From Photorhabdus heterorhabditis (GTDB lineage Bacteria > Pseudomonadota > Gammaproteobacteria > Enterobacterales > Enterobacteriaceae), in assembly GCF_018448905.1 (NCBI RefSeq), contig NZ_RCWA01000036.1, positions 1 to 47,740 of the forward strand: a DNA stretch of 47,740 nucleotides. Reading direction: 5' to 3'. The notes beneath the pieces were generated by a model. That model was not told the DNA's origin. It saw nothing but the letters and a program-made list of their open reading frames with translations, and searched no databases. A program made the translations under genes and the position numbers. Positions 4,832 to 8,228 of the stretch are shown piece after piece; the stretch's first letter is position 1; every line of letters begins with the position of its first letter.

Positions 4832-6028
4832 ATGTTCCAGAATGTTGATGCTTATGCCGGTGATCCTATTCTTTCGCTGGCTGAAGAATTTAAAAAAGAT
4901 CCTCGTGCGGAAAAAATTAATCTGAGCATCGGGCTTTATTACGATGAGCAGGGTGTGACTCCGCAATTGCAGTCGGTAGCTACCGCAGAAGAACAACTTA
5001 GAGCGTTATCGCAGACTGCCTCTCTTTATCTGCCGATGGAAGGATTGACATCATATCGTCTTGCGGTTCAGGAACTGTTATTTGGTAAAGATCATCCGGT
5101 GTTGAAACAGCAGCAAGTGGCAACCATTCAAACATTAGGCGGTTCTGGCGCCCTTAAAATTGGTGCTGATTTTTTGCGTCGCTACTTCCCTGATTCAGAA
5201 GTATGGTGCAGTGATCCAACCTGGGAAAACCATGCTGCTATTTTTGCAGGTGCTGGTATTAAGGTGAATTATTACCCTTATTTTGATACACAGACCAAAG
5301 GGGTAAAATTCAGTGAGATGTTGGAAACGTTCGGGAAATTACCAGCAAAAAGCATTATTGTGATGCACCCTTGTTGCCATAATCCAACAGGATCTGACCT
5401 GACCTATGATCAGTGGGATCAGGTTGTTCAGATTGTTAAAGAGAGAGAATTACTGCCATTCCTTGATATTGCTTATCAGGGACTTGCTGATGGTATGGAA
5501 AAAGATGCTTATGCCATTCGTGCTATGGCGACAGCCGGATTGCCTTGTCTGGTAAGTAATTCTTTTTCGAAGATATTCTCCATGTATGGTGAACGCGTCG
5601 GTGGCTTATCTGTCATTTGTGATGGTGAGCAGATTAAAGAGCAAGTATTGGGGCAACTGAAAGCGGGTGTACGTCGTGTCTACTCTAGCCCGCCGAATTT
5701 TGGTGCACAGGTTGTCGCTAAGGTGCTGACTGATCCCGCATTGAAAGCGCAGTGGTTGGAAGAAGTTGAGCGTATGCGCTTGCGTATTTTGGAAATGCGC
5801 ACAGTGCTGGTGGATACCTTGAAAACCACATTACCAGAGAAAAACTTTGAGTATTTTCTAAAACAGCGCGGGATGTTCAGCTATACCGGTTTTAGTCAGA
5901 AACAGGCGGATCGTTTGCGCCAAGAGTTTGCTGTTTATCTGGTTGGTAATGGCCGGGTTTGTATGGCGGGTGTTAATCACCGTAATGTTGCACGTATTAC
6001 TGAAACATTTGCGGCGGTAAATAAGTAA
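4832..6028 (+). CDS. tyrB: Aromatic-amino-acid aminotransferase TyrB
   Basis: The 398-residue product (E. coli TyrB 397) is a fold-type I, class I aminotransferase. It carries out the last step of tyrosine and phenylalanine synthesis and also acts on leucine. The PLP Schiff-base lysine is K247 in [16 protein letters not shown]. The co-substrate segment HPCCHNPTG (179-187) is present. An AAGGAG ribosome-binding site precedes the ATG. AspC is the main alternative by sequence; the dnaB-alr-tyrB order and the HPCCHNPTG segment favour TyrB. In E. coli aphA and other genes follow; here a 1.1-kb accessory gap replaces them. Confidence 0.93.
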
Positions 6029-6277
6029 TAAATTTTAATGTAAATGAGCTGCTGTTGACGATTGTGAGCGGCAGTTTTGTAAAATAGTAGTATACCCTCT
6101 TTAGAAGCGTACCGTGTATGGTGTGCTTAATTTTAACTTCAATCAATTGAATTATAATATTTTTTCTCTGTGTTTTTTCACCCTGCAATTATTAATTAAA
6201 CTATTAACTAGTATCACTAATCTTAAATAAAGTGGAGGGAGAAAGCGTAACATTAAAAAATTTTTATGAGGTGAGTT

Positions 6278-6532
6278 ATGGGGTTAAAGTTAAACATTGT
6301 GTGGTTTGACAGAAAATCGGAAGAGTTTATTGGTGAAGAGTATTCTGGAGATCTGGGAGATGATGGTTCAGTAATAGAGAAATTAGGGCTTCCTATTCAA
6401 GATAATATTAATAATGGTGGATTCGATGTAAAAAAATAATGGGTTCCGATACTTTAGTCATATTTTAAAAATAAAATTTAAATAGATAAATATTGGTATC
6501 AAATATATTTTGACTACCGAGATTAATGGTAA
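6278..6532 (+). pseudogene. Decayed colicin E3/cloacin-type immunity protein gene (orphan)
   Basis: The frame opens [20 protein letters not shown] and continues [13 protein letters not shown], then [15 protein letters not shown]. From memory this follows the 85-residue immunity protein of colicin E3/cloacin DF13 almost position by position ([20 protein letters not shown]). After codon 53 there is a TAA, yet the same frame goes on to match the rest of the family: WVPIL, stop, SYF, KNKI, stop, then YFDYRD, stop, W and the terminal TAA at 6530-6532. With the internal stops read through, the relic is 84 codons long, essentially full length. Four internal stops make it a pseudogene, although a 53-residue peptide could still be made. 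A GAGGTGAG ribosome-binding site precedes the ATG. No intact nuclease toxin gene lies beside it. Confidence 0.85.
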
Positions 6533-7136
6533 TTATTTATTCTTACTTAAACCTTGCTAACATGAATTGCAGAAAAATTAGGTAGATAATAAGTATTGAG
6601 TTCTATATATCATAGAATTCAGTTCTTTTATGTACCACTCTTAATGGTAATGACAATATACTTTCATAGTTATTTTATTGAATTTAATTACCTAGTTAAA
6701 CGATAATTTTTGATTATTATGGTCATAGGATAACTTTCTTATCTAATAATATACTATTTGATAATGCTCCGACTATCCCTATTTATTGTGAAATAGATCA
6801 CTTTTTTATGAAATATGTTTCATCCGGTAAAAATACTTATGACTATTTCAAAGCATAGCCAAACACTTGTTAGTATTCGATAAGAATTTTCCTATTCCTT
6901 TGTTTTATCAGGTTTATTTTAAACATAAAATACAGATTTATTATCAAAGTGCTGGAATAAATGTTTTCTAGCAGAATTTAACTTGATGGTTATCACATAA
7001 AATAGGACTGAAAATTCAGCAAAGCATTCTTACGATCATTCTCTCAACTTCGTTATAAAGTAAAAAATCCTTCTTTACTGTTTTGCGTTTCACGCATAAA
7101 ACAAACGTATGTTTAGAAACAAACAAGTGCCTAAAA
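6533..7136. other. Gene-free AT-rich spacer between the immunity pseudogene and psuK
   Basis: About 600 bases with no credible gene. It holds a good CRP-like site at 6787-6802 and several short AT-rich inverted repeats, including TGAAATATGTTTCA near 6809. The last part presumably contains the psuK promoter, but I could not pin down a convincing -35/-10 pair. Confidence 0.5.
6787..6802. promoter_or_regulatory. Candidate CRP-cAMP binding site
   Basis: TGTGA-AATAGA-TCACT matches the CRP consensus TGTGA-N6-TCACA at nine of ten core positions. It lies about 335 bases upstream of psuK. That is distant, so control of psuKG requires a promoter further upstream than usual. Control of nucleoside catabolism by CRP is common; its role here is inference. 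Confidence 0.5.
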
Positions 7137-8228
7137 ATGACGAACCGGGAAAAGCAAATATTGTATCTTCTGAGACAAGATCCGTTGATCCCACAGCAGG
7201 AAATTGCCAATATTTTAGGGATAAGCCGCTCTGGTGTCGCGGGTCACATTATGAATTTAATGAATAAAGGGTATATAAAGGGGAAAGGTTATATTTTATC
7301 TGATCACAATTATGTGGTGGCTGTTGGTTCTATTAATATGGATGTCTGTGGTTATGCCTCTTCTAAATTAATTTATGCAGATTCTAACCCAGGAAAAGTA
7401 AAGTGTGCACCTGGTGGTGTAGGGAGAAATATTGCCCAAAATATCGCGTTGTTAGGTAAAGAATGTCATCTTATTTCTGTGGTTGGTAATGATTTCTATG
7501 GTAGTACTTTATTGGATTTAGCCAAACGTGCAGGTGTCAACATCGATCATTGCTATAAGCTTCATGGTGAGAATACCTCAACTTATATCTCTTTATTAGA
7601 TGACAATGGCGAGATGTTAGTTGCCATTAACGACATGCATATTCTGGAAAAACTGACGCCATCGTTGTTGGTGGATAATTGTGATCTTATCCAGCATGCG
7701 GGTGTACTGGCTATTGATTGCAATTTATCCGAAGAAGCCTTGACCTGGCTGTTTACCAATGCCGGAACAGTCCCTGTATTTGTCGATCCGGTATCTGCAT
7801 TTAAAGCACCTAAAATTAAAAATTGGCTTTCCTATATTCATACTTTAAAGCCTAATCGCCTAGAGGCAGAGGCGCTTAGTGGCATGAAAATAACCCATCT
7901 TTCTGATGTTCTTGGTGTAGCACAGTGGTTTCATGATCAGGGCGTGCAGCGATTAGTGCTCAGCATGGGTATGGACGGTGCCTATTTCAGCGAAAATAAT
8001 GGTGTGGCCGGCTGGTCACGTCCCATCAGTATCAAGATTGTCAATGTAACAGGTGCCGGCGACGCTATGATGGCCGGGTTGGTAAGCTGTTGGCTGGAGG
8101 ATATGACGCTGGCCGAAAGTGTTCGCTTTGCTCAAGGATGTTCTGCGTTAACGCTATCTTGTGAATTTACCAATAATCCAAATCTGTCGAATGGCAGTGT
8201 TCAAAAACTTTTGGAATTACCATCATGA
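7137..8228 (+). CDS. psuK: Pseudouridine kinase, PfkB family, with N-terminal helix-turn-helix (YeiI/PsuK type)
   Basis: PfkB-family sugar kinase expected to phosphorylate pseudouridine to its 5'-phosphate, the substrate of the adjacent PsuG. Residues 1-55 form a winged helix-turn-helix (REKQILYLLRQDPLIPQQEI, then ISRSGVAGHIMNLMNKGYI), as in E. coli YeiI (362 residues) and unlike the shorter E. coli PsuK (313). The kinase domain has APGGVGRN (about 91-98) and NVTGAGDAMMAG with catalytic Asp309. The start at 7137 gives 363 residues and matches the family; an ATG at 7083 would add 18 poorly conserved residues. Its TGA overlaps the psuG ATG (ATGA), so translation is coupled. The DNA-binding domain may make it autoregulatory; that is inference. 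Confidence 0.88.
   Translation: MTNREKQILYLLRQDPLIPQQEIANILGISRSGVAGHIMNLMNKGYIKGKGYILSDHNYVVAVGSINMDVCGYASSKLIYADSNPGKVKCAPGGVGRNIAQNIALLGKECHLISVVGNDFYGSTLLDLAKRAGVNIDHCYKLHGENTSTYISLLDDNGEMLVAINDMHILEKLTPSLLVDNCDLIQHAGVLAIDCNLSEEALTWLFTNAGTVPVFVDPVSAFKAPKIKNWLSYIHTLKPNRLEAEALSGMKITHLSDVLGVAQWFHDQGVQRLVLSMGMDGAYFSENNGVAGWSRPISIKIVNVTGAGDAMMAGLVSCWLEDMTLAESVRFAQGCSALTLSCEFTNNPNLSNGSVQKLLELPS

Follow-up and report, generated by a model that had tools for sequence, protein, structure and literature searches.

A decayed colicin E3-type immunity gene between tyrB and psuK of Photorhabdus, probably left behind after deletion of its toxin gene

Positions 6278 to 6532 of the window, by which we mean the whole stretch of 47,740 nucleotides of Photorhabdus heterorhabditis DNA that was analysed, hold a pseudogene of a colicin E3/cloacin-type immunity gene, which was very probably left behind when its toxin gene was deleted and was then decayed by point mutation (we put the probability of this reading at about 93%). 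A colicin E3-type bacteriocin operon, encoding a toxin that by homology would cleave 16S rRNA, would once have been present with its immunity gene between tyrB and psuK; judging from LexA- and Fur-like boxes in relatives, the operon was probably controlled by the SOS response and by iron. A deletion of about 1.9 kb would have taken the control region adjoining the toxin gene together with that gene itself, apart from its last codons, so that the bare immunity gene remained. Since there was then neither a self-made toxin nor an operon promoter, the immunity gene would have served no purpose any more, and would probably have ceased to be expressed, before point mutations accumulated. The toxin would have been lost first and immunity later, and the 53-residue stub that is still open would do nothing. 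The evidence consists of homology, a toxin remnant and a retained leader with the middle missing between them, toxin-bearing and orphan states of the locus in relatives, and a draft genome without a matching toxin elsewhere. The features concerned are listed below.

4832 to 6028, forward strand: tyrB, bounding the spacer on the left and matched in all 13 genomes searched (name taken from an earlier note)
6026 to 6228, forward strand: leader of the toxin operon, still present upstream and 94.9% identical to that of relative G003
6105 to 6128, forward strand: hairpin resembling a terminator, between the end of tyrB and the pseudogene, the sole one in 5950–7160 (mean in shuffled sequences 0.4)
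6229 to 6245, forward strand: deletion junction between toxin-operon leader and toxin 3' end, where about 1.9 kb of relative G003 is missing
6246 to 6269, forward strand: last 7 codons and stop codon of the E3-type toxin gene that was deleted
6268 to 6275, forward strand: putative ribosome-binding-site-like stretch before the immunity start, recognized by eye, overlapping the toxin stop and similar in relatives
6278 to 6532, forward strand: pseudogene of the immunity gene (Cloacin_immun, PF03513), consisting of 84 codons and a terminator and interrupted in frame by stops at codons 54, 60, 68 and 83
6534 to 6630, forward strand: downstream stretch aligning with sequence 3' of the divergent immunity gene of G003, being the end of a 392-nt, 69% alignment
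7137 to 8228, forward strand: psuK, bounding the spacer on the right and also matched in all 13 genomes searched (name likewise from an earlier note)

Identity of the pseudogene

Translation from 6278 gives 53 open codons and a final stop at codon 85, and in alignment with intact close homologues the frame is unbroken by any insertion or deletion. The 5' part of 53 residues matches the Pfam family Cloacin_immun at 4.7e-27 (profile 1–52 of 80), and the 3' piece, used as a query of its own with the stops written as X, matches this family too at 3.6e-9 (profile 54–80 of 80). The PF03513 search of Photorhabdus genomes scored the place at 1.2e-41 (143.3 bits, profile 1–80). Among solved structures, 1e44, the colicin E3 immunity protein, is the nearest in sequence; residues 1–51 of the 5' part match it at 4.8e-20. 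The sequence-only reading had proposed a full-length corpse of an E3/cloacin-type immunity gene with four in-frame stops, decayed through point mutations, and had suggested a protein search against colicin E3 immunity proteins. The match of both pieces to one family, the hit to 1e44, and the presence of all stops in one frame without any indel bear this description out.

The interrupted frame and its position in AT-rich intergenic DNA could be taken as signs of a chance open stretch that is unrelated to any gene. However, two separate pieces match one family and intact copies occur at the same place in relatives; this explanation is refuted, with a practically negligible probability, as the match to Cloacin_immun is far beyond chance. 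The profile is covered over its whole length while an open frame of about 85 residues is lacking, and because of the four in-frame stops the window copy is a pseudogene of the family and not a working member. Stop-codon recoding, or a working full-length protein, was rejected because the stops are of two kinds (TAA and TAG) and six intact close homologues have sense codons at these positions. An assembly error at a single stop is possible; four separate errors seem unlikely.

Remains of the toxin operon

What directly precedes the immunity gene in the window is the end of a toxin gene. The 32 nt at 6246–6277, which cover the end of the toxin gene and the intergenic gap before the immunity gene, are 90.6% identical to the sequence of P. 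tasmaniensis (G011) and 93.8% to that of P. thracensis (G012). Further upstream, a 233-nt match to G003 (94.9%) starts 30 nt before 6026, inside tyrB, and represents bases 1–233 of the spacer. The middle that is missing corresponds to the G003 spacer from 234 to about 2117, about 1.9 kb, and at the junction about 17 nt have no assigned source. The 392-nt alignment with G003 at the downstream side also spans the immunity genes of both. An adjacent upstream E3-type rRNase toxin gene, which is present in the spacers of G003, G011 and G012, is absent in the window except for its last codons, and the colicin-like translocation domain and C-terminal nuclease domain are found in the toxins of relatives only.

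Profile searches of the window's genome, a draft of 226 contigs, gave no matches to PF09000, PF03515 or PF11480 (ImmE5), and the pseudogene was its only PF03513 match. A separate toxin elsewhere that the gene might counter was for this reason not retained as a candidate; since the genome is a draft of 226 contigs, a missed toxin is possible. That no intact nuclease toxin is adjacent had been noted from the sequence alone and agrees with the 7 remaining toxin codons and the lack of any PF09000 match in the genome. The additional suggestion of a lost cassette gains precision from the last codons of the toxin, the operon leader and the stretch of about 1.9 kb that is missing between them.

The spacer in related genomes

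The spacer between tyrB and psuK was compared in 14 Photorhabdus genomes, consisting of 13 whole genomes (with that of the window, G000, included) and P. akhurstii DSM 15138. Strains with a name here are P. tasmaniensis T327 (G011), P. thracensis DSM 15199 (G012), P. bodei LJ24-63 (G005) and P. luminescens DSM 3368 (G008). A search for PF03513 with a cut-off of 25 bits covered the 13 whole genomes and 14 control genomes; the family was present in 11 of the 13 and in none of the 14 controls. Eight of the 12 places found lie inside the tyrB–psuK spacer and four elsewhere.

The states of the spacer are diverse. An E3-type toxin with a close homologue of the immunity gene occurs in two of the 14 spacers (G011 and G012), with the toxin gene directly upstream of the immunity gene in both and the toxin frame of G012 interrupted. 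One spacer (G003) has an E3-type toxin, a divergent immunity gene and an E5-type immunity gene, and another (G004) an E5-type toxin with E5-type immunity. An intact orphan immunity gene is present in four (G005, G007, G008 and P. akhurstii) and a dead one in two, the window's and that of G010. The remaining four (G001, G002, G009 and G006) hold neither toxin nor E3-type immunity; in G006 there is only an interrupted E5-immunity fragment, which is below the cut-off. A close homologue that is open over at least 84 codons is found at this spacer in 6 of 14 genomes. The comparison of the spacer among Photorhabdus strains, which the sequence-only reading had called for, thus yielded both intact immunity genes and toxin-bearing spacers, and a frame that was never open past codon 53, named there as an outcome that would speak against a decayed gene, is not what related strains have.

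According to Pfam, the toxins of G011 and G003 combine PF03515 (Cloacin) with PF09000 (Cytotoxic), and that of G004 combines PF03515 with Colicin_E5. The body of the toxin is similar in G003 (L043), which has an E3-type nuclease end, and G004 (L044), which has an E5-type end, and G003 carries an E5-type immunity gene downstream. The sequences look like the outcome of an exchange of one nuclease end in which the earlier immunity gene was retained.

The spacers also contain other genes. On the opposite strand, 3' of the immunity gene, a HicB-like antitoxin and HicA-like toxin pair occurs in G011 (L051:2979-3383), G005, G007, G008, G010 and G012, with Pfam applied to the HicB of G011 and the HicA of G012 only; G009 has an apparent fused remnant of such a pair. 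A GNAT acetyltransferase gene is found in the spacer of G004 (L044:3365-3817), G001 and G006 (Pfam on the copy of G004 only). In G007 (L047), a 337-codon open reading frame that by eye resembles an IS630-type transposase lies between tyrB and the orphan immunity gene, just before the latter. Outside the spacer, a second E3-type immunity gene is present in G001 (L053), G004 (L054), G006 (L055) and G010 (L056). It lies 3' of an E3-nuclease (PF09000) match in G001, G004 and G006; G010 has no PF09000 match, and about 1 kb before its second immunity gene there is an open reading frame that starts like the upstream one of G006. This shared start is PAAR-like by eye.

With respect to regulation, an exact CTGT-N8-ACAG palindrome, which we take to be the LexA-box consensus, is located shortly before the toxin start in all four toxin-bearing spacers and in none of the 10 others, and an exact box of this kind appeared in 2 of 2600 shuffled 200-nt leaders. 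Sites with one mismatch occur in the toxin-less spacers of G000, G001 and G008, at places other than that in the toxin leader. Scored against a 19-position sequence that we assume to represent the Fur-box consensus, a Fur-like site with 16–17 of 19 positions, slightly upstream of the LexA-like position, is present in 8 of 13 spacers, namely the four that bear a toxin and those of G005, G007, G008 and G010, with P. akhurstii outside the count; the best score in 520 shuffles was 15. These boxes in relatives suggest that the toxin operon is probably controlled by both the SOS response and iron. The scan of the window's spacer gave neither an exact LexA-like box nor a Fur-like site.

Probably separate losses of the toxin

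The deletions that produced toxin-less spacers do not all have the same endpoints. In the window the leader is retained to base 233 together with 32 nt before the immunity start, in P. akhurstii about 156 nt of leader and 55 nt before the immunity start are left, and in G008 these values are about 310 and 80 nt. In G005 and G010 the junction is the same, at about 328, and hardly anything of the toxin remains, and in G007 the leader ends where it does in G005 and G010 and is followed by the inserted transposase-like reading frame. We read these as at least four junction types. In trees of the flanking genes the window groups with G002 and G003, apart from the other orphan-bearing genomes. Recombination at the locus is likely, since the cassette of G004 is not the one found in its sister G010, and this makes the number of loss events uncertain.

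P. akhurstii also provides an observation against the main reading, as it too lost the control region and its immunity gene is still intact; loss of the promoter alone therefore does not force decay.

Decay of the immunity gene

Compared with six intact relatives, codons 1–53 have dN values of 0.024–0.065 and dS values of 0.22–0.52, which suggests that this part was under constraint for most of its divergence. The last 31 codons contain the four stops and 4–5 further amino-acid differences from intact relatives. The sequence-only reading held the decay to be fairly recent, which is plausible in view of the absence of indels and a dN well below dS in codons 1–53. When 25 random changes were simulated on five intact relatives, at least four stops appeared in 2.5–7% of the trials, and in 0.2–0.4% there were at least four that all fell behind codon 53. 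We read the four stops as mildly high relative to neutral expectation and as nothing more than decay.

The position of all stops behind codon 53, which is rare in these simulations, the apparent constraint on codons 1–53 and the retained Shine-Dalgarno-like sequence would fit a functional truncated immunity protein that is translated from its own ribosome-binding site and maintained by selection, with decay confined to the part past the first stop. However, the asymmetry of the stops was tested after the data had been seen, and a recently dead gene would look constrained too. Furthermore, such a protein would miss the last third of the domain (profile 54–80), the operon control region is deleted and a scan of 5950–7160 gave no forward promoter-like match upstream of the pseudogene, and the draft genome yielded no matching toxin. 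A working stub is for these reasons very improbable.

The dead copies of the window and G010 have 5 bases in common that occur in them alone among 8 aligned copies (the next highest pair has 2) and that are absent from all six intact close copies. Three of these sites are in codons 54–69, one of them at the codon that is the first stop in the window, and two are in codons 8 and 22. By chance, 0.75–1.96 shared bases are expected, with a probability of 0.001–0.03 for at least 5, depending on the AT bias that is assumed. Independent decay does not readily explain this excess, which could be due to AT-biased coincidence or to recombination. If a single dead allele had spread from one lineage to another by recombination, the two copies would not be independent decays. 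Against such a transfer, the flanks and deletion junctions differ, the G010 spacer is 93.9% identical over 1459 nt to that of G005, of which the immunity gene is intact, two of the five shared bases are found towards the opposite end of the gene, and AT-biased decay raises the number of coincidences. We regard a single dead allele as unlikely.

Among the four intact orphan immunity genes, dN/dS is 0.21–0.60 on very few changes. Purifying selection for resistance on these genes is possible, the ratios being too weak to decide. At residue 48, where Im3 has the cysteine of NNGCFDV, the residue is G in the window, G011 and G012, A in G007, G008 and P. akhurstii, and V in G005; we take this position to be the known specificity residue or the one next to it.

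Occurrence of the family

PF03513 was found in 10 of 149 genomes drawn evenly from the bacterial family, including those of the window and G006. Relatives of the P. tasmaniensis immunity protein occur in 896 plasmid records, of which 785 are from Klebsiella; the best 15 of the 896 comprise 14 from Klebsiella and 1 from E. coli, with an identity of up to 80.5% among the matches listed. The same protein gave no match in phage records, and a phage origin was rejected on this ground.

Relation to known systems

Lumicins of Photorhabdus are reportedly the subject of work by Sharma et al. in 2002. As far as the available text of the sources goes, bacteriocins of Photorhabdus are termed lumicins (PMC2717986, PMC3220699), and the lumicin loci of strain W14 are described as encoding a killer protein and multiple predicted immunity proteins (PMC2717986). 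The sequence-only reading had referred to lumicins with orphan immunity genes; both the term and the multiple immunity proteins are found in the part of the paper that was available, which makes no mention of orphan immunity genes (PMC2717986). The likeness to these loci is one of description.

With the colicin E3/cloacin immunity family (PF03513; PDB 1e44, 1jch), the window copy shares length and frame, and the first 51 residues are closely similar; Photorhabdus relatives likewise have an E3-type nuclease gene directly upstream. In contrast, the Photorhabdus locus is in the tyrB–psuK spacer and not on a small plasmid, and the window copy is dead, with its toxin gene deleted. Mutagenesis pointed to a single residue of Im3, located in its third strand, as crucial for binding, according to the text available (PMC7884437). 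Orphan immunity genes at polymorphic toxin systems, in the portion of the source that is accessible (PMC10470768), are likewise immunity genes without toxin, as in the four relatives at tyrB–psuK; in Photorhabdus it is a single gene left by deletion and not an array, it is decayed in the window, and its role is presumed from sequence.

Types of nuclease bacteriocins have been described in a paper of which the main text, as available, does not contain the word Photorhabdus (PMC5536347), and the available parts of two other papers hold nothing on the tyrB–psuK locus (PMC3482391, PMC11944403). A swap-and-decay site at tyrB–psuK was not found in the literature searched on lumicins, colicin E3/S-type pyocins of Photorhabdus and orphan immunity, a search that subscription papers were mostly outside.

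Meaning of the locus

The window copy itself is an ordinary fossil of bacteriocin turnover; the useful part is the comparative spacer as a swap-and-decay site. It is conceivable, though clearly less than an even bet, that tyrB–psuK is a chromosomal site of bacteriocin turnover, at which toxin genes whose nuclease ends can be swapped are removed in separate events, each taking away the SOS operator and most of the toxin gene while the immunity gene is left. This would yield resistant non-producers, in which immunity would then be kept or lost depending on the toxins of neighbours, and the window would represent the end state of a cycle from producer to resistant to sensitive. At one address, several stages in the life of a bacteriocin are present across species: a complete pair, an exchanged nuclease end, orphan immunity, dead immunity and a site without either. 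The locus would make the long-discussed succession of producer, resistant and sensitive types testable in insect-associated bacteria with natural strains.
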